A stretch of 64,000 nt of DNA. It comes from Streptomyces sp. B21-105 (lineage in GTDB: Bacteria > Actinomycetota > Actinomycetes > Streptomycetales > Streptomycetaceae). How positions within the stretch are numbered: position 1 is the first letter of the stretch; each line of letters begins with the position of its first letter. A program made the translations under genes and the position numbers. Positions 42,759 to 52,711 of this stretch are shown one piece after another. The DNA is taken from NCBI RefSeq assembly GCF_036898465.1, contig NZ_JARUMJ010000001.1, positions 7,378,001-7,442,000 of the forward strand. The letters are read 5' to 3'. The notes under the pieces were generated by a model. That model worked only from the letters and a program-made list of their open reading frames with translations, made no database searches and was not told the origin of the DNA.

Positions 42759-44086
42759 TCACCGCGACGTTCTGTCGATCGAGGCCAGCGGCAGCGCGAA
42801 CAGCGCCCGGCCCGACTGCGCCCAGACCTCGCCGGTCGCCGCCCAGTAGGACAGCGACTCCGTCTGCGTGCTCCAGCAGCCGTGCCGGTCCGCGGCGCCG
42901 CACACCGCGGCGCCCGAACCGCCCGCGCTGTGCCCGCCGTCCGCCTCGCCCTCGCCGGAGCTCTGGCGCCACAGCGTCCCGTGCGCGTCGTGCGGGCCGG
43001 CGGCACGGGTCACATACCACCGCGCGTCGTAGGACAGCACGCCGTGCACCCCCGTGACCTTCGTCGTATAGGCCTCGGACGCCGTCACCCGACCGTTCGC
43101 ACCGGTGGCGAGCAGACCCGCGTGGCCGGGCGCGGTGCTGAACGGGTAGCGCCACAGACGGGCGCCACGGTCGCCGTCGTCGCGCGTCCACTCCCCGGCG
43201 ACCAGGCTGTCCGGCGCGGTGCTGCGGTCGAGGGAGACGGTCGAGGGACGCGGCGCGCCCGAGCCGCCGCTCAGCTCGTAGGAGCCGACGGCCGGCAGCA
43301 CGAAACCGTACCCGTGCGCCGACCAGCCGCCCGGCACCCGGCCCACCGCGTCACCGGCGACCGTCGCGCGCTGCACACGGTTCATGTCGTACACATACAG
43401 CGCGGACCGGTCCCCGTCGTCCGCGGTGACCAGCAGCTTGTCCTGGTACCAGACCATGCCGGAGACGTGCGAGACCAACCCGCGGTAGTCCCGGCCGCCG
43501 TCCACGGGGACGGCGAGCAGCGCCCAGGTATAGGAGAGGTGGCCGAGATCGGCGGCATCGACGAAGCCGACCCGGGCCAGGCCCCGGTCCGCCGCCGCGC
43601 CGCCGCTGCGCGACCAGCCGGAGAGGATCACCCGGTTCGAACCCCACACGCCGTCGTCGTCCGCGTCCCCCGACGTGGTGACCGCGCCCGGCCGCCAGCC
43701 CGCCGTGTCGTCGGTGTTCCAGCAGTACGCGCGCGTGGCCGTGGGGGAGACCGGCAGGGCCCGGCGCTCGGCGGGCGAGCAGTCGATGGCGTCCCGCAGG
43801 GTGCGGTCGGCGCCGTCCAGCACCGCGCTGACGCCGACCGGGCGGCCCATCCCGGCCGCGAGCCGGTCCAGGGAGGCCTGCGGCACCATGTTCTCCGTCA
43901 GCCGCAGCCCGGCGACCTCGGACGCCGCGGTGAGCGGCTTCAGATCCCCGGGCCGTCATGGGTGACCGTCGCCTGGGAAGCGCTGATCACGGTGGCGGCA
44001 GCAGTGAGGGCGAGAGCGGTTCCGGACAGGAACGCCCGCAGTGCCCTGCCGCGTCTGCGCCGGCGGTGTCGGCCGCGCTGTCTCAT
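42759..44086 (-). pseudogene. Frameshifted secreted protein of unknown function
   Basis: A strong ribosome site (GGGAGG) and ATG at 44086 start a signal peptide (RGRHRRRRRGRALRAFLSG, then an Ala/Thr core) that ends early with TGA at 43940-43942. The body, with no start until ATG 43889, continues in another frame: GDLKPLTAASEVAGLRLTENMVPQ and 376 more residues. Adding one G to the run in GGCCCGGGG restores ...THDGPGDLKPL.... The body has Trp- and Cys-bearing beta-propeller-like repeats (WYQDKLLVTADDGD, SALYVYDMN). The gene is either disrupted or carries a one-base sequence error. Function not recognised. Confidence 0.75.
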
Positions 44087-44157
44087 TCGCCCTCCCGAGG
44101 CGGGCCAACTGCACCTGATGATCCATACGTTGACAGAGGAGCAGGTGGGGTGACCCG

Positions 44158-45561
44158 TTAGAGGGATGCTACGGCAGTCGGCCGCCCCGGAGGACGGAGA
44201 CCGTGCAAATATGCGGAAGACGCTGTAGTAAGAAACGGAAGACGCTGTCGCAAGAACCCGGATGAATCGCCGTTACGACGGTGACGACGTCCTGTTTCTG
44301 ACCACCGCAGGCGCCGTCGAATGGGGCAGCAACTCCCGGGATCGGCGGGCAGCAGCACGTCGACGTCGGCATCCTCGCAGAAACGATACGGCCGGTGTTC
44401 CAGAAATCCCCCCAGGTAGCGCCGCACCCGGGACATCTCGGCCCGTACCGTCACCGTACGGTCCGCGTCGCCGAACATGTCCTCCGCGAGCTCCGCCGCA
44501 CTGCGCCCGCTCCGCTGCGCCGCCAGCAGATACAGTAATTCCGCATGCCGGGGACTGAGTTCGTGGGACCACGAGCCCGCGTCCCCCGACACCGTCACCG
44601 ACCAGCGCCGGGGCCTGGTCAGGTCGAGCACGATCCGGGTCGCACCGCTCTGCCGCCGCCCGGCCGCCTCGTCCACCGACCGCACCAGCCAGCCCCCGGC
44701 CAGCGGCTCGAGGGTGCACAGACCCAGCGCCGGCAGCCATCGACGCCCCGGGGACGGCGACTTGGGCAGCGCGATCCGGCTCGTGTACGGCATCCCGGTC
44801 ACCGCGGCCGTCCAGCCCTCGCCGTCCACGGCTGCGGCCCGGCCGCCTATCCGGGCCAGCGCCGGCGCCGCCACAGCGCGCAGCCGCTCCAGTGAACCGA
44901 GGTGTTTCTCGCGCAGCCTCGACTCGGCGAGCTTGGCCACCGAGTCGACCCACGCGAGGGTGGCCGGGTGCATCGTCTCCAGCGGCCCGCTGACGTCGAC
45001 GACGCCCAGCAGCCGGCCGCTGCGCGGGTCGGTGATCGGCGCTCCCGCGCACGTCCAGGCGGCGTGCGAGCGCACGAAATGCTCGGACGCGAACACCTGC
45101 ACGGGCCGGCGCACCACCGCCGGCGTGCCGACCCCGTTGGTGCCCACCACCGCCTCGCCCCAGTCCGCGCCCAGCTCGAAACCGAGCCCGTCGGCCTTGC
45201 GCAGCACCGGGCCGCAGCCCTCGCGCCACAACACCCGACCCTCCCCGTCGGCGACCACCATGATGTGGTGAGCCACGTCCGCGACCGACAGCAACCCTTC
45301 CCGCAACACCGGCAGCACCTCGCGCAGCGGCGACTCCTCGCGCCGCCGCCGCACCTCGTCGGAGGTGAGCAACCCCGCCCGGACATCACGCTCCGGATCG
45401 ACGCCGCTGCGCAGCAAGCGCTCCCAGGACTGCTCGATCACCGGACGCGGGGCGACGCGCACCCGCTGCCCGGCCAGCCGGGCGTCACGGACCTGGTTGA
45501 GCACCCGCGCCGCCCGCGCGGCGTCGACGGCCGCGAGCTGCGGCACGTTCATCGGTGGCAT
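44158..45561 (-). CDS. GAF-domain transcriptional regulator with winged-helix output (C-terminus frameshifted)
   Basis: 467 residues as read, from ATG 45561 with GGGAGG upstream (GTG 45567 is an alternative). An N-terminal helical segment (QSWERLLRSGVDPER) and a GAF domain (about 90-220: HIMVVADGEGRVLW, GTNGVGTPAVVRRPVQVFASEHF, ITDPRSGRLLGVVDVSG) resemble AcoR/DhaR regulators but the sigma-54 AAA domain is missing; the C-terminus instead has an OmpR-like winged helix (PRHAELLYLLAAQRSGRSAAELAEDMFG). The last ~60 residues are junk-like. One C added near 44334-44340 changes the end to ADPRELLPHSTAPAVV... and a stop at 44273. Senses an unknown small molecule. Confidence 0.8.
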   Translation of the reverse strand: MPPMNVPQLAAVDAARAARVLNQVRDARLAGQRVRVAPRPVIEQSWERLLRSGVDPERDVRAGLLTSDEVRRRREESPLREVLPVLREGLLSVADVAHHIMVVADGEGRVLWREGCGPVLRKADGLGFELGADWGEAVVGTNGVGTPAVVRRPVQVFASEHFVRSHAAWTCAGAPITDPRSGRLLGVVDVSGPLETMHPATLAWVDSVAKLAESRLREKHLGSLERLRAVAAPALARIGGRAAAVDGEGWTAAVTGMPYTSRIALPKSPSPGRRWLPALGLCTLEPLAGGWLVRSVDEAAGRRQSGATRIVLDLTRPRRWSVTVSGDAGSWSHELSPRHAELLYLLAAQRSGRSAAELAEDMFGDADRTVTVRAEMSRVRRYLGGFLEHRPYRFCEDADVDVLLPADPGSCCPIRRRLRWSETGRRHRRNGDSSGFLRQRLPFLTTASSAYLHGLRPPGRPTAVASL

Positions 45562-45801
45562 CGCCACTGGACCTCCCGGGTTGGACGCAGGCCGAGAACC
45601 GGGTGTCAAGCGCCTGCGCCGACTGTTTCCGGTCTTACTGGGACCTCCCATCTTGCCGTCCACGCGTGACGGAGGGGCATACTCCGGTCACCACCACCGA
45701 CAAGTTGCAACCCCCTGCAACCCTGGTGAAGACCCACAGCTTGTTTGAAACTTGAGCCACGCCGTCCCGAGCGGCGATGCTGGCCTCGCAGGGCCATTGC
45801 G

Positions 45802-45839
45802 GCGGGGGTGGTGCCGTGTCGGCGCAGCACCACCCCCGC
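45802..45839 (-). terminator. Terminator-like hairpin after the acyl-CoA dehydrogenase gene
   Basis: A perfect 13-bp stem (GCGGGGGTGGTGC with GCACCACCCCCGC, 12-base loop) sits 33 bases beyond the stop of the leftward acyl-CoA dehydrogenase gene. Direct TGCAACCC repeats occur nearby at 45704 and 45716. Confidence 0.85.
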
Positions 45840-45871
45840 TTCCTGTTTCGGTGACTTTCCCGAGCCGGGCG

Positions 45872-47521
45872 TCATTCCCGGGGAGCGGCCCGCTCGACGA
45901 GCGCCGCCAGATCCAGACGGTGCGGCAACGTCCCGAAGGCCGCGCCCCCGTCCCCGCCCAGCCGCGAGGCGCAGAACGCGTCCGCCACCTCGGGCGGCGC
46001 GAACCGCACCAGCAGCGACCCCTGGAGCACCAGCGCGAACCGCTCCGCCAGTCGCCGGGCCCGCCCATCCACCCCGTCCAGATCGGCCAGGTCCGTCAAC
46101 AGATCCCTGATCGCCCCGTCCAGCCTATGGTCGGCCCCCCGCGCCAAGCCCACCTCGTGGAGGTAGGCGTGCAACGCCTGGGGCTCCCGCTGCAGCGCCC
46201 GCAGCACGTCCAGTGCCTGGACGTTGCCCGCACCCTCCCAGATCGAGTTCAGTGGCGCCTCCCGCACCAGCCGGGGCATCCCCGACTCCTCCACGTAACC
46301 GTTTCCGCCGAGACATTCCGCCGCCTCCACCGCAACTGGAGCACAGCGCTTGGTCACCCAGTACTTGGCCGCCGGAACAGCCATCCGGAGAAACGCCCGC
46401 TCCTGCTCGCTCCCGTCGTCGCAGGCCGCCGCGAGCCGCAGCGCGAGCGTGGTCGCTGCCTCCGACTCCAGCGCCAGATCTGCCAGCACATTGCGCATCA
46501 GCGGCTTGTCGACGAGCTTTCCGCCGAACGCCGCACGATGGGAACAGTGGTGGACCGCCTGCGCCACCGCCTGCCGCATCAGCCCCGCCGACCCCAGCAC
46601 ACAGTCCAGCCGGGTCGCCGCCACCATGTCGATGATGGTCCGCACCCCGCGCCCCTCCTCGCCGACCCGCCGCGCCCACGTCCCGTCGAACTCGACCTCG
46701 GCGGAGGCGTTGGACCGGTTGCCCAGCTTGTCCTTCAGCCGCTGCAGGCGGAACACGTTCCGGGAACCGTCTTCGAGAACGCGCGGAACGAGGAAACACG
46801 TCAGCCCGCCGCCACCCCCGCCGTGAGCCGTCCGCGCCAGCACCAGGAAACCGTCCGACATCGGCGCCGAACAGAACCATTTGTGCCCGGTCAGCTCGTA
46901 CGCCCCGTCCCCGGCGAGCGCGGTGGCGACCGTCGTGATCGCCCGGACGTCGCTGCCGCCCTGTTTCTCCGTCATCCCCATGCCGAACAACGCACCAGCC
47001 TTCGACCGGGCCGGCCGCAGCGCACGGTCGTAGACCGAGGACGTCAGCCGGGGCTCCCACTCCGCGGCCAGCACCGGATCGGTGCGCAGCGCGGGCACCG
47101 CCGCGTGGGTCATGGACAGCGGACAGCAGGTGCCCGCATCGACCTGCGTCCACACCAGGAACCCCGCCGCCCGCCGCACATGCCCGCCCGGCCGCCCCCA
47201 GGCACCGGTCAGCCCGGCCCCCACACCCTTGCCGAGCAGCCGATGCCACGCCGGGTGGAAGTCGACCTCGTCGACACGGTGCCCGTGACGGTCAAACGTG
47301 CGAAGTTCCGGAGGATGCGCATCGGCCTGCATCGCCCACTCCTGCACCTGCGCCGACCCCGCAGCCCGCCCGAGCGCCGACAACTCGCCGCGCACCTCGT
47401 CGAGCAGTTCCGGATCCAGGTGCCTTTCCACGGCCGCCACCAGCGTTTCGTCCGCGCCGTAGACGTCGTATCCGGTGAGGGGCGGGGGCTGGTTGGTCAC
47501 CGTGTGCGTGCTGCCTGCCAT
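45872..47521 (-). CDS. AidB-like acyl-CoA dehydrogenase
   Basis: 549 residues, longer than fatty-acid acyl-CoA dehydrogenases (~380) and typical of the AidB/isovaleryl-type DNA-repair-associated group. MGMTEKQGGSDVRAITT, NPVFRLQRLKDKLG-like (NVFRLQRLKDKLGNRSNASAEVEF) and LGGNGYVEESGMPRLVREAPLNSIWEGAGNVQALD match AidB, including the C-terminal catalytic-Glu region (WEGAGN). FAD enzyme; AidB-type proteins are linked to alkylation resistance. Single gene, divergent from the YihY gene, followed by the hairpin at 45802-45839. Confidence 0.92.
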   Translation of the reverse strand: MAGSTHTVTNQPPPLTGYDVYGADETLVAAVERHLDPELLDEVRGELSALGRAAGSAQVQEWAMQADAHPPELRTFDRHGHRVDEVDFHPAWHRLLGKGVGAGLTGAWGRPGGHVRRAAGFLVWTQVDAGTCCPLSMTHAAVPALRTDPVLAAEWEPRLTSSVYDRALRPARSKAGALFGMGMTEKQGGSDVRAITTVATALAGDGAYELTGHKWFCSAPMSDGFLVLARTAHGGGGGGLTCFLVPRVLEDGSRNVFRLQRLKDKLGNRSNASAEVEFDGTWARRVGEEGRGVRTIIDMVAATRLDCVLGSAGLMRQAVAQAVHHCSHRAAFGGKLVDKPLMRNVLADLALESEAATTLALRLAAACDDGSEQERAFLRMAVPAAKYWVTKRCAPVAVEAAECLGGNGYVEESGMPRLVREAPLNSIWEGAGNVQALDVLRALQREPQALHAYLHEVGLARGADHRLDGAIRDLLTDLADLDGVDGRARRLAERFALVLQGSLLVRFAPPEVADAFCASRLGGDGGAAFGTLPHRLDLAALVERAAPRE

Positions 47522-47644
47522 GGCCCGAACCTACCCCCGGGCACGTCGGTCATGACCGTCAGCGGGCCGCGCGCCGCTCCCCGACCCGGTGAAGAGGCCT
47601 TGCCGGAGGTGAGTGCAGCCCCGAACGGCGGATACCTTTAGGGC

Positions 47645-48988
47645 GTGCAGCCAGCAAGTCAGTCACCCGAGCAACCCGGGAGCCCCGCGGGGCGTCTCCA
47701 CCGGGCGCGTGCCCTTTACCGGAACGTCTCGAAGCGGCGGACCGCCTGGCTGCTGTTGAAGGACACCGTCAACTCGTGCATCGAGTACCGCATCCTCGGT
47801 CTCGCTGCGGAAGCCGCTTTCTTCACGTTGCTCTCGGTGCCTCCGCTGTTGCTCAGCCTCATCGGTCTGCTCGGCTACGTCGACGACTGGACCGGCACCG
47901 ACACCATCACCAGCCTGGAGGCCAACCTCCTCGACGCCTCCCGCACGGTCCTGTCCGACAAGGGCGTCCGGCAGATCGCGCAGCCGATCCTCGACGACGT
48001 GATGACGGGCGGACGCCCCGACGTCATCTCCATAGGCTTCCTGTTCGCGCTGTGGTCCGGCTCGCGCGCGGTGAACGTCTTCATCGACACCATCACCGTC
48101 ATGTACGGTCTCGACGGCGTCCGCGGCATCGTCAAGACCCGGCTGGTCGCCTTCCTGCTGTTCGTCGGAGCCCTGCTGATCGGGTCGGTCGCGCTGCCTC
48201 TGATGGTCGCCGGACCGGACGCCGTGGTCCGCATCGTCCCCTGGTCGACGACCGTCGTGCAGGTCCTGTACTGGCCGGTCGTGATCGTTCTGTCCATCGC
48301 GTTCCTGACCACGCTCTACCACGTCTCCGTGCCCGTCCGGTCCCCGTGGATCGAGGACGTGCCCGGCGCGCTCGTCGCCCTCGCCATGTGGGTGCTCGGC
48401 AGTTTCCTGCTGCGCATCTATCTGACGAGCACCATCGAGGGCGCCACCATCTACGGCTCCCTCGCGGCCGCCGTCGCCGTCCTGCTGTGGATCGGTGTGT
48501 CCGCGTTCGCGGTCCTGGTGGGCGCCGCCGTCAACGCCGCCATCGACCGGGTCTGGCCGGCCGCCGCGACGGCCGCCGCCCGCGCGGCCAACGAACGAGT
48601 GCGCCAGGAGGAGGCCGCGGAGTACGTCGCCCGCATGGCCGCGGCCCGCTCCTACGAGGACGACGACCCGGACGATCCCGACATGCCCTCCGAGTTCCCC
48701 GAACGGTGGTCCCGCTTCCTTCCCCCGGAGGACGTGACGGGACGCTTCCGGGCCCATGTGAAGAGCGCCGCGAAGGGAAACGGCGTGAACGGGGTGAACG
48801 GCGCGAGCAGGGGAAACGACGCATCCGACGGAGACGGTGTGAGCGGCGTGAGCCGCGGAAACACCGGAAACAGCGTGAGCCGCGGAAACAGCGGGAACGC
48901 GGGCAACAGCGGTATGGGCGGCAACGAGGGAAACAGCGTAGCCAGGCCAACCGGCGGAAACAGTGAGGAACAGCCACCCGGACAGTGA
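47645..48988 (+). CDS. YihY/BrkB-family inner membrane protein with Gly/Asn/Ser-rich tail
   Basis: 447 residues, GTG start. Six membrane helices span about 45-300, with the family motif AAEAAFFTLLSVPPLLLSLIG, FLFALWSGSRAVNVFIDT and IYGSLAAAVAVLLWIGVSAFAVLVGAAVNAAID. Family members resemble RNase-BN-misannotated permease-like proteins; the function is unknown. After residue 375 the cytoplasmic tail becomes Gly-Asn-Ser-Val low-complexity sequence (GNGVNGVNGASRGND... to EGNSV), from imperfect DNA repeats at about 48775-48950. Divergent from the acyl-CoA dehydrogenase. A small frame overlaps its stop by GTGA. Confidence 0.92.
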   Translation: MQPASQSPEQPGSPAGRLHRARALYRNVSKRRTAWLLLKDTVNSCIEYRILGLAAEAAFFTLLSVPPLLLSLIGLLGYVDDWTGTDTITSLEANLLDASRTVLSDKGVRQIAQPILDDVMTGGRPDVISIGFLFALWSGSRAVNVFIDTITVMYGLDGVRGIVKTRLVAFLLFVGALLIGSVALPLMVAGPDAVVRIVPWSTTVVQVLYWPVVIVLSIAFLTTLYHVSVPVRSPWIEDVPGALVALAMWVLGSFLLRIYLTSTIEGATIYGSLAAAVAVLLWIGVSAFAVLVGAAVNAAIDRVWPAAATAAARAANERVRQEEAAEYVARMAAARSYEDDDPDDPDMPSEFPERWSRFLPPEDVTGRFRAHVKSAAKGNGVNGVNGASRGNDASDGDGVSGVSRGNTGNSVSRGNSGNAGNSGMGGNEGNSVARPTGGNSEEQPPGQ

Positions 48989-49302
48989 CCCTGGACAAAG
49001 GTGTTACGAATTCCAGCCCCCGCTTCTGCCGCCTCCCTCGCGAACGCCGCAAAGTCGCGCGGCCGGAGCACCTTCTGAACGCCCTCCGAGAGGCAGGCGT
49101 TGCATCCGCCCAGCAGCACCCGAACCTTCACCAGGAACGAGCTTTCCTCCGGCGCGACACCGAAACCTACGTAGCCGGCCGACGTCCCGTCCTCGCCGCC
49201 GACCGACTGCGCGACATCGAGGACACCATCGGCGCGATCGGCCGCCAGAGCGGTTACGGAAGCGCGTTCTCCCGCCCTACACCCGCCCTCAAGCGGGTGT
49301 AG
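48985..49302 (+). CDS. Hypothetical small protein, uncertain
   Basis: A GTG overlapping the YihY stop (GTGA) opens a 105-residue frame, basic, with EHLLNALREAGVASAQQH and LAADRLRDIEDTIGAIG helices and a stop (TAG 49300-49302) inside the terminator stem. Third-position GC is moderate, and the opposite strand is open as well, so coding is not proved. No known family recognised. It may be only an artefact of high GC. Confidence 0.25.
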   Translation: MTLDKGVTNSSPRFCRLPRERRKVARPEHLLNALREAGVASAQQHPNLHQERAFLRRDTETYVAGRRPVLAADRLRDIEDTIGAIGRQSGYGSAFSRPTPALKRV

Positions 49303-49306
49303 GGCG
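49273..49306 (+). terminator. Strong terminator hairpin downstream of the YihY gene
   Basis: A perfect 14-bp stem (CGCCCTACACCCGC with GCGGGTGTAGGGCG, 6-base loop). It separates the YihY transcript from the AraC gene, whose start is 102 bases further on. Confidence 0.9.
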
Positions 49307-49407
49307 TCCCCCGGGAACACCGGACGAGGGCGTCGCGGAGGCAGGCAGCAGAGGGCGCCGCAGCGGCGTGACGAAGCCGTCCCCTCCTGCGGCGTAGGCT
49401 GGCATAC

Positions 49408-50181
49408 GTGTACGAGGAGCGGGTCTCCCGGCTGGCCGGGGCGGTGGTGTGGACCAATGCGCCGTCGCCGTCGACCCGCGCGTTTCCCGTCCTGCCCGAC
49501 GGCTGCATGGACCTGCTGTACAGCGAGGGCAGACTGCTGGTCGCCGGGCCGGACACCCGGGCTCACGTACCCGACGGACCGCCGGCGCCCTGGGCGGGCA
49601 TCCGCTTCTTCCCGGGTGCCGCGCCTGCCCTCCTCGGTGTACCCGCTCACGAACTGCGCGACCGGCGCGTGGAGTTGGCAGATCTGTGGCCGGCACCCGA
49701 GGTGCGGTGCCTGACCGACCGGGTCGCCACCGCGCTCCGACCGGCGATGGCACTGGAGTCGTTGGCTCTGGAACGCGCGGCTCCCCCCGCCCCGGAACTG
49801 CGCCGTCTCGTCGCCCTCCTCGCCGCCGGCCGTCCGGTGGCCGCGACGGCTGACGAACTCGGCATCGGAGCACGCCAGTTGCACCGACGCTCGCTCAACG
49901 CCTTCGGCTACGGACCCAAGACACTGGCCCGGATCCTGCGCCTGCAGCGGGCTCTCGCGATGGCCCGGGAGGGCATGCCGTACGCGGACACCGCGGCCCG
50001 CGCCGGATACGCCGACCAAGCGCATCTCTCCCGGGAGGTAAGGGAGTTCACGGGGGCGGCACTCGGCGACCTGCTGCTGCGCCGACGACTTGCGGCAACG
50101 CCGCGAACGGCCCCCTTGGGCCCAGCGCCTCCGGCAAGGTCGGACGAAGCACCCTCGCAACCTTTCAGGGCGGGTTACTGA
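49408..50181 (+). CDS. AraC-family transcriptional regulator
   Basis: 257 residues, GTG start. An N-terminal domain with VLPDGCMDLLYSEG and the DUF6597-like PWAGIRFFPGAAPALLGVP block is followed by the AraC double helix-turn-helix at about 150-235 (ATADELGIGARQLHRRSLNAFGYGPKTLARILRLQRALAMAREG then YADTAARAGYADQAHLSREVREFTG). This subgroup commonly controls a nearby glyoxalase or ketoreductase; the VOC protein behind it, convergent 80 bases away, is a candidate target. Confidence 0.93.
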   Translation: MYEERVSRLAGAVVWTNAPSPSTRAFPVLPDGCMDLLYSEGRLLVAGPDTRAHVPDGPPAPWAGIRFFPGAAPALLGVPAHELRDRRVELADLWPAPEVRCLTDRVATALRPAMALESLALERAAPPAPELRRLVALLAAGRPVAATADELGIGARQLHRRSLNAFGYGPKTLARILRLQRALAMAREGMPYADTAARAGYADQAHLSREVREFTGAALGDLLLRRRLAATPRTAPLGPAPPARSDEAPSQPFRAGY

Positions 50182-50263
50182 TCCAGCAGGGGCGGGCCTG
50201 GGGATCCGGCGGCTCGGCCCTGGCGAACCGCCGATACGGCACTGGATGATCCGGGGTACGGGC

Positions 50264-50659
50264 CTACCGATCCAGCCGCGCGAAGAGGTCGACGCCGTTG
50301 CCGTCAGGGTCGTGCACGACGGCGTACCGTTGGCCCCAGAACGCGTCCCAAGGCTTCAGCTCGCCCCGATGACCGGCGCCCACCACCTCCGCGTACACCG
50401 TGTCGACCTCCTCCGGGGTGTCGCAGCGAAGCGCGAGCGAGGTCCGGCCGCCCCCCGACGGTGCTCGCCACTGCGGGTGGAACGAACGCACCGTGCTCTC
50501 GGTGTCCAGCAGGAGCCGCAACCCGCCCGGCAGGTCGGCCTCGGCGTGCGGTTGCTTTTCGGAGCCTTCGGGGAAGGCGAATCCCAGCCGACGGTAGAAG
50601 ATGACGGAGGCGGCCATGTCGGAGACGACCAGGCCGATGGCATCGAATCGTGGAGTCAT
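50264..50659 (-). CDS. VOC-superfamily (glyoxalase/bleomycin-resistance-like) protein
   Basis: 131 residues. Paired beta-alpha-beta-beta-beta modules: LVVSDMAASVIFYRRLGFAFPEG at the N-terminus and TVYAEVVGAGHRGELKPWDAFWGQRYAVVHDPDGNGVDLFA at the C-terminus with a conserved metal/ligand Glu-like site replaced by Asp (VDLFA). The family binds small molecules or metal ions. Cytosolic. Divergent from the DinB-like gene. The ATG is at 50659; an in-frame extension to 50710 has no ribosome site. Confidence 0.9.
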   Translation of the reverse strand: MTPRFDAIGLVVSDMAASVIFYRRLGFAFPEGSEKQPHAEADLPGGLRLLLDTESTVRSFHPQWRAPSGGGRTSLALRCDTPEEVDTVYAEVVGAGHRGELKPWDAFWGQRYAVVHDPDGNGVDLFARLDR

Positions 50660-50830
50660 ACGGCCACGGTAGGCAAGGTCGCCACAAGCGGTCTTGAAAG
50701 AAACGGACACGTCGGACCGACGGGCCTGGGAGATCGTTCCCGGGGTCGGCCGGCTGCGGAAACGACTTCAGGACGTGCCGGCTCCGGAAATCCATTTCTC
50801 GCAGTTTCCCGCGCGTGCCAGGCTGAACTG

Positions 50831-51364
50831 ATGGACATCCTCGGCCGTCGGGAACTTCTCAGCTGGCAGTTCGATCTCACCTGGGCACTCTTCGAGTACC
50901 ACCTGGATCGGCTGGAGCCGGAGGACTTCCTCTGGGAGCCCGTGGCGCGATCCTGGACTCTCCATCCGGACGGAGCCGGAGGATGGACGCCCGACTGGGC
51001 GGACACGGAACCCGACCCGGTGCCGGTCCCGACCGCCGGCTGGGTGAGCTGGCACCTCGGCTGGTGGCTGAGCGTAGCCACGGACCACCTGCTGGACCGT
51101 TCTCCGCGAGAGCGCGGCGACATCCGCTGGCCGGGCGTAGGAGAGCCGGCCGTCTCGTGGCTGCGCGGCCTGCGTGAGGAGTGGGCGGCCGCCGTCGACC
51201 GCCTCGTCGACGCCGACCTCGACCGGACCGCGACCCTTCCCTTGCCGAACAACCCGCAGTACACGGTGGCGCACCTGCTGACCTGGGTGAACGCCGAACT
51301 GATGAAGAACGTGGCGGAGATCGGACAGTTGCACCTGCTGAGGGCGGTCTCGCAGGTCGACTGA
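50831..51364 (+). CDS. DinB superfamily protein
   Basis: 177 residues. N-terminal LLSWQFDLTWALFEYHLDRLEPEDFLWEPVARSWTL fits the DinB four-helix fold, with His ligands in WVSWHLGWWLSVATDHLL and AHLLTWVNAELMKNVAEIG. The family binds a metal through three His. Reaction unknown. Start ATG 50831. Single gene, with 234 bases of empty sequence behind it. Confidence 0.88.
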   Translation: MDILGRRELLSWQFDLTWALFEYHLDRLEPEDFLWEPVARSWTLHPDGAGGWTPDWADTEPDPVPVPTAGWVSWHLGWWLSVATDHLLDRSPRERGDIRWPGVGEPAVSWLRGLREEWAAAVDRLVDADLDRTATLPLPNNPQYTVAHLLTWVNAELMKNVAEIGQLHLLRAVSQVD

Positions 51365-51598
51365 GGATACGGCGAACCGCGTCGGCGAGCCGCCACCCCC
51401 GCAAGCTGCCGTCGGGCAACGCCGGCGCATCTCCCCGTCGTTGCCGTTGCCGTAACCCTGGGAGTGGGCAGGTAAGTTCCCGGTCCCCGCCCCGACACGC
51501 GTCCGGCGTCGGGGCCGCTCCGCCGGGTGAACCCCGAGACCTGCCGCACATCCCGCCCTGATCAGCTCCCGAGACGTACGCCCCGTCACTCTGGGCTC

Positions 51599-52302
51599 AT
51601 GCGCATGAACGCTCGTCTGCTCGTCTACAGTCGCACGGCCGCCTACCGCCACGACTCCATCCCGGCCGCCGTCGCCGCAGTGCGCGGTCTGGGCGAGTCC
51701 GTCGTCGATCACACGGAGGCCCGGCGGCACTCGAAGCCCCGCTGGACGGGTACGCGGCCGTGGTCTTCCTCTCCACCAGCGGCGAGGTGCTCACTCCACC
51801 GGGGCGGGACCGACTCTCCGGCTACATCGAGGCGGGCGGCGGCTTTGTCGGGGTGCACGCGGCGGCGTGCACCGAGTACGACTGGCCGGCCTACGGCGAA
51901 CTCCTCGGGGCACGCTTCGCCCGGCATCCGGCACTTCAGCCCGGCAAGGCGGTGATCGAGGACCACGACCACCCCGCCACCCGTTCCCTGCCGGCCGTCT
52001 GGGACTTCATCGACGAGTGGTACGACTTCTGTTCCAACCCCCGTGGGCGGGTGCGCGTCCTCGCCGTCGCTGACGAGACGTCGTACGAAGGCGGCGGGCT
52101 GGGCAACGACCACCCACTGGTGTGGTGCCGTGAACAGGGGCGAGGGCGCGTCTTCTACACCGCTCTCGGCCACATGGTCGAGGCATACCGCAATCCCGAC
52201 TTCCTTGCACACCTGCGCGGCGGGCTGCGCGGTGGTCGGCGAAAAGCCGCTGCTCTTCAACCAGATCGCAGGCGGCAAGTCGCCCCGGCTCTCCTTGCGT
52301 GA
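51599..52302 (+). pseudogene. ThuA-like trehalose-utilisation family protein, frameshifted
   Basis: The frame starting ATG 51599 reads MRMNARLLVYSRTAAYRHDSI then is lost after about residue 45. The downstream frame continues correctly with ALEAPLDGYAAVVFLSTSGEVLTPPGRDRL, GGFVGVHAAACTEYDWPAYGELLGARFARHP and NDHPLVWCREQGRGRVFYTALGHMVEAYRNPDFLAHLRGGL, all ThuA-type class I amidotransferase-fold motifs. Inserting one C near 51718-51721 (GAGGCCCGG to GAGGCCCCGG) rejoins them. The C-terminus ends in frame-shifted noise. Related ThuA proteins act with sugars in several organisms, but activity is unproved. Confidence 0.75.
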
Positions 52303-52438
52303 ACTGTCCGACCTCGGGGTGAACGTCGCGATCTACAGCACCCCCTGTCTGTTCGCGGCCCATAAGGCCGTGCACTGCGCCCTCACCGAACTGAAACGGA
52401 CGGACGGTCGGCTGCCCCCGTCGGACGCCCTGCACGGT
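52225..52438 (+). pseudogene. C-terminal fragment of an isocitrate lyase/PEP mutase family gene
   Basis: One frame reads VVGEKPLLFNQIAGGKSPRLSLRELSDLGVNVAIYSTPCLFAAHKAVHCALTELKRTDG. Lines up with the last barrel strands of ICL/PEP mutase-family proteins (KPVLVNM...GGKTP...LSxxELxxLGYxxVIFPxxxLFAAxKA). The start and the catalytic domain are missing. It begins inside the 3' end of the ThuA-like gene, in a different frame, as after a deletion or recombination joint. Confidence 0.7.
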
Positions 52439-52711
52439 GGGTGTCCACCGTCACAGCCTGCGGGAAGGCCACAATCGCCCGTCGCCGCCCTGCCGCGGAA
52501 GAGGCGGGATGCAATCGGGAAACAGCGAGCATGAAGGACGACAAGTGGGCTGAGGTGAACGCGGGGGTGTGAGCCCGGCGCCCGGAAGCTGCCTCGGTAA
52601 GGCTGACGTGCGTGTGTGAACGGCCCGGGTGCGGCGCCATGGAGGTGGGATGAGCACGGAAACAGCGCGGGCCGAGTGCCGGCCTGAGAGCCGCGCCGGG
52701 CGGACGAGCCG

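Follow-up and report, generated by a model that had tools for sequence, protein, structure and literature searches.

Three genes lying close together in a 64,000-nucleotide stretch of Streptomyces sp. B21-105 are each interrupted by a one-base break in frame. The stretch (the window, G000:C1:7378001-7442000) belongs to a 9.21-Mb genome of 3 contigs, G000, and the genes encode a secreted protein (site 1), a GAF-domain regulator (site 2) and a ThuA-like protein (site 3). The preliminary description of this DNA correctly placed all three breaks, and at each of them the window departs from its relatives. It also proposed a common cause for the cluster, namely an assembly that systematically drops bases from G/C runs, and this is unsupported. 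On a slight balance of probability the breaks are three separate events: the ThuA locus is a genuine pseudogene, while sites 1 and 2 are isolated residual errors rather than decay, without motif-specific undercalling. The cluster is accordingly judged coincidental: a real pseudogene happens to lie near two adjacent genes that each carry a private one-base break. None of the papers listed in literature searches has a title on this locus.

The ThuA locus is truly decaying. For sites 1 and 3, 116 locus rows were offered for alignment, some genomes being present twice or more. At site 3, 44 of the 49 rows that aligned are longer than the window by one base modulo 3, and the remaining five are not. 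In 43 of the 45 printed rows (duplicates included) the letter that the relatives have and the window lacks is something other than G or C, and one row shows a longer run instead; what the window is missing adjoins the G/C run and does not lie inside it. The preliminary description also noted a broken 3' end, which is confirmed: ThuA has lost its end, and the PEP-mutase-type gene downstream of it most of its length, and their remnants are fused by a deletion of about 760–770 bases relative to L039, L040, L063 and L029. The frame of this next gene follows ThuA within at most 100 bases in the five loci in which both are whole (L039, L040, L063, L111 and L029); most of the other ThuA-bearing loci showed no such downstream gene within the stretch examined. 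In L040 the intact ThuA matches the ThuA profile PF06283 (E 2.5e-72) and the downstream gene matches PEP_mutase (PF13714), its match to methylisocitrate lyase falling far below the curated cut-off. The 3' remnant in the window itself gave no Pfam match.

Erosion of ThuA extends to relatives. The closest relative compared, the sister genome G013, shares most of the window in collinear order and is about 94% identical to G000 across the secreted-protein gene; it has lost most of ThuA, and its junction, at almost the same position, differs from that of the window. The copy in L042 is eroded, L041 matches ThuA in part only, close to where its stretch ends, and a search of L043 for ThuA gave no match. 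A protein-collection search with the ThuA of the window returned no near-identical intact copy among the 120 matches listed of 663, the best standing at 87%. Given the accompanying deletion and erosion, the frame break itself is probably real as well. ThuA and its downstream neighbour form a real pseudogene locus in this Streptomyces clade, with a frame break and a fusion deletion. Such a combination of frameshift and deletion is that of ordinary bacterial pseudogenes, from which the locus shows no notable difference.

Table 1. Coordinates of the interrupted genes and their breaks (window positions).
Feature	Position	Strand	Basis or remark
ThuA 5' part, before the frame break	51599..51720	+	sequence comparison
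Site 3, ThuA frame break	51718..51722	+	aligned rows
ThuA remainder	51760..52223	+	PF06283, E 7.9e-52 for 51760-52221
Deletion junction, ThuA to next gene	52223..52232	+	~765-bp deletion
3' remnant of PEP-mutase-type gene	52232..52445	+	family taken from intact relative L040
GAF regulator, in-frame part	44344..45564	-	407 codons as queried; GAF domain PF01590
Site 2, C3G3	44335..44340	-	one base shorter modulo 3 than 78/78 alignable named loci and G013
GAF regulator, conserved C-terminal tail	44273..44343	-	frame differs from the regulator's own
Signal-peptide reading frame of secreted protein	43940..44086	-	48 codons, then stop; frame translation
Mature part of secreted protein, other frame	42759..43889	-	376 aa; no Pfam family
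Site 1, C4G3 run	43946..43952	-	one base shorter than G013 and closest named relatives

The frame breaks at sites 1 and 2 are private to this assembly. At site 1 the signal-peptide frame ends at the run and the mature part continues in a different frame. G013, L039-L043 and L045 each have one more base than the window, as do 90 of the 99 locus rows that aligned, modulo 3 (9 do not). In all 81 loci with the gene, the frame of the mature part is open for at least 40 codons upstream. The secreted protein matched no Pfam or NCBIfam family; its signal peptide is nearly invariant in the 10 loci displayed. At site 2, relatives of the regulator are encoded by 80 named loci (78 of them named Streptomyces), of which 78 could be aligned. 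All 78 are longer by one base modulo 3, 77 of them by one base and one by four, and G013 is longer by one. The comparison with related genomes proposed in the preliminary description thus returned the ordinary frame for sites 1 and 2 in all 81 loci that have the genes. Its further statement that each gene needs one extra C or G in a CCCGG-containing run holds for site 1, which is a run contraction relative to G013; it fails at site 3, and at site 2 the base context is ambiguous because the relatives vary.

The same conservation bears on the idea of programmed frameshifting or phase variation at short runs. Every break does lie at or beside a G/C run, although the break is conserved at sites 1 and 2 in none of the loci whose frame was tested, and is absent from most site-3 rows. 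Runs of 3–4 bases are also short for phase variation. This explanation is very improbable.

Near-identical intact copies of both genes exist without the break. The protein P0001 is an intact secreted protein of 446 residues, 98% identical (373/380), on a contig of 243,466 bp. The regulator is matched by P0121, identical at 406 of 406 residues and with the conserved tail present, on a contig of 44,091 bp, and by P0122, 99% identical, on a 243,466-bp contig as for P0001. The contig that holds the window measures 9,152,429 bp, so all three proteins come from other assemblies. Within the window the displaced parts, the regulator tail and the signal peptide, remain intact. Relative to G013, the ratio of non-synonymous to synonymous substitution rates (dN/dS) is 0.27 for the secreted protein and 0.14 for the regulator, around a length-weighted null mean of 0.22; constraint on both genes is unremarkable, with no sign of relaxation. 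Ordinary constraint together with near-identical intact copies implies that the two breaks are either very recent or not real. Isolated one-base assembly slips, private to this assembly, would account for both, and this reading is placed somewhat ahead of recent mutation or true decay. The earlier preference for an assembly slip over decay is therefore a good explanation of sites 1 and 2; it does not extend to ThuA, which also carries the fusion deletion.

That undercalling of G/C runs in a CCCGG context across the assembly explains all three sites is unlikely. It was examined by comparing G000 with G013 over regions A and B (about 584 kb aligned) and region C (a further 109 kb), 0.69 Mb in total. 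CCCGG occurs at all three sites, and contraction of G/C runs in G000 is slightly commoner in that context (13/5,086) than elsewhere (32/18,357). The difference is not significant (p 0.28), however, and the reciprocal comparison leans the same way (9/4,981 against 26/18,139), so that a CCCGG-specific error was rejected. Contraction overall, at 45/23,443 against a reciprocal 35/23,120, shows no significant excess either (p 0.31). Isolated one-base gaps in regions A and B leave G000 the shorter in 83 cases and G013 in 82, and a general excess of one-base losses was rejected on this count; CCCGG or CCGGG lies near 11 of the 83 and 11 of the 82. One-base gaps within G/C runs of at least 3 number 33 in G000 and 23 in G013 (p 0.23).

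G/C runs of 3 to 6 are 1 to 6% fewer per base in G000 than in G013 when aligned sequence only is counted, and runs of 4 and 5 are up to 8% fewer with the unaligned parts included. This deficit might be read as undercalling, but it accompanies a lower G+C content (0.712 against 0.716) and tracks substitutions, which break 2,154 runs against 1,915, rather than gaps. At ThuA, moreover, most rows place the difference outside the run. These counts do not support an undercall of G/C that is motif-specific or large in scale; a low rate of scattered errors may be compatible with them.

Evidence for scattered errors comes from the genes broken in one sister genome and open in the other. A first frameshift detector missed sites 1 and 2 and was replaced by a second, whose output was pruned by hand; the counts for the lesion and contraction tests are taken from the pruned lists. 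In G000, 11 genes were flagged in region A and 8 kept, the others being dropped for a weak start region (6731044), as window 4571 (6739110) and for low complexity (6859695); one of the 8, 6695470, has a two-base gain in a repeat near its C-terminus. Window 4571 was rejected as a frameshift, being a one-base difference from G013 between divergently predicted genes. Region B gave 5, from which parA-parB was moved to G013 and two were dropped, 4619669 as the mirror of a G013 case and 4633378 as repetitive, leaving 2; the single case in region C was assigned to G013. In G013, 6, 9 and 3 genes were flagged in A, B and C, and 3, 4 and 1 kept. The drops were mirror images (7353230, 7422158, 7502370, 4558709 and 4741909) or weak, short or repetitive cases (4582849, 4789760, 4874526, 7755721 and 7761792). 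After pruning, the genes broken in G000 number 10 of the 541 G013 genes aligned, and those broken in G013 number 8 of the 554 G000 genes aligned, to which the parA-parB case is added. Among the resulting 9 in G013, 4539424, 4848781 and 4907158 have further lesions, and one lesion was counted for each. In-frame stops were of no help: in G000 they interrupt 4 genes, one of them twice and the remaining three some 20 codons before the C-terminus, and in G013 none, stops no more than 15 codons from an end being excluded.

The single-base lesions differ in sign. G000 shows 7 losses and no gains, and G013 1 loss and 8 gains (Fisher p 0.0014, post hoc); the split persists when sites 1 and 2 are left out (p 0.003). 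Opposite signs in sister genomes suggest scattered residual error in both assemblies. The G013 side of this can be compared with outgroups. The parA-parB locus (L185:4867-6885) forms a single 672-aa frame in G013 by virtue of one extra base relative to G000, and at the junction the length difference from G000 is a multiple of three in all 12 outgroup loci; the fusion is probably an assembly error in G013. Two further genes, for a 3-hydroxyacyl-CoA dehydrogenase and a phosphoketolase (L122:9021-11153 and L209:9089-11470), are open in G000 and frameshifted in G013 by a gained base. Of this pair the dehydrogenase gene was checked against outgroups, and 12 of 12 loci have the same length as G000. 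The lesions in parA-parB and the dehydrogenase gene look like insertion-type error in G013, and the losses in G000, being one-sided as well, may likewise be error.

Outgroup polarity was sought at 5 sites in 4 loci. It is clear at the parA-parB junction, in the dehydrogenase gene and at two sites in a TPP-enzyme gene; at the site in a PucR gene the relatives vary in length. The TPP-enzyme gene (L128:6400-7400; G000 7488400-7489400), which is among the broken genes of G000, has many small indels in about 740 bases and an apparent short internal duplication; either it is plainly a pseudogene or the assembly is poor at this point.

Several observations weigh against residual error at sites 1 and 2. 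P0001, P0121 and P0122 may come from sister strains rather than from this strain, and the gap counts given above make a weak broad signal of error. Nine of the 10 broken G000 genes were checked against Pfam, without an obvious housekeeping gene among them. Their mean dN/dS is 0.303 against a null of 0.223 (9 genes, P 0.06; P 0.016 with the false window-4571 case included), a lean that gives P 0.04 for the 7 genes left without sites 1 and 2. For the 7 genes broken in G013 (1 missing) the mean is 0.157 against 0.219 (P 0.89). The broken G000 genes also crowd between 7.24 and 7.58 Mb, with 8 of 186 aligned genes there against 2 of 355 elsewhere in the sampled sequence (p 0.004). The seeming dispensability of these genes, the dN/dS lean and the crowding fit real decay too.

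These points, and the lack of large-scale undercalling, give a real though lesser chance that all three breaks are genuine, ThuA decaying alongside two recent private mutations. An adjacent pair among the broken genes is in itself not unlikely, since at least one would arise by chance with a probability of 0.15 to 0.27. If the breaks were real, loss of the signal peptide would retain the secreted protein inside the cell, and the regulator would swap its conserved tail for an unrelated one. The intact displaced parts of both genes, the near-identical intact copies and the one-sided indel sign in G000 count against this and in favour of isolated residual errors.

The crowding of broken G000 genes is seen around G000:C1:7339000-7502500, which takes in the window and flanking tiles. 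A continuing burst of recent gene inactivation in the chromosomal segment at about 7.34–7.50 Mb, with the regulator and the adjacent secreted protein cut in quick succession, possibly by selection in culture, is improbable.

The finding is an ordinary one. Antonov et al. (2013, PMC3711429) reported many predicted frame transitions in prokaryotes, including 4010 pseudogene clusters; none of the present sites is of the conserved recoding type in their paper. Sites 1 and 2 resemble residual one-base assembly errors in being isolated, private and in otherwise intact genes, and differ in showing here no significant enrichment by motif or G/C run over the sister genome. For annotation, the ThuA locus deserves the label of pseudogene, which the genes for the secreted protein and the GAF regulator should receive only with support from reads. 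A practical hint for separating residual assembly error from gene decay is the sign of one-base lesions in each genome, read from a comparison of sister genomes.

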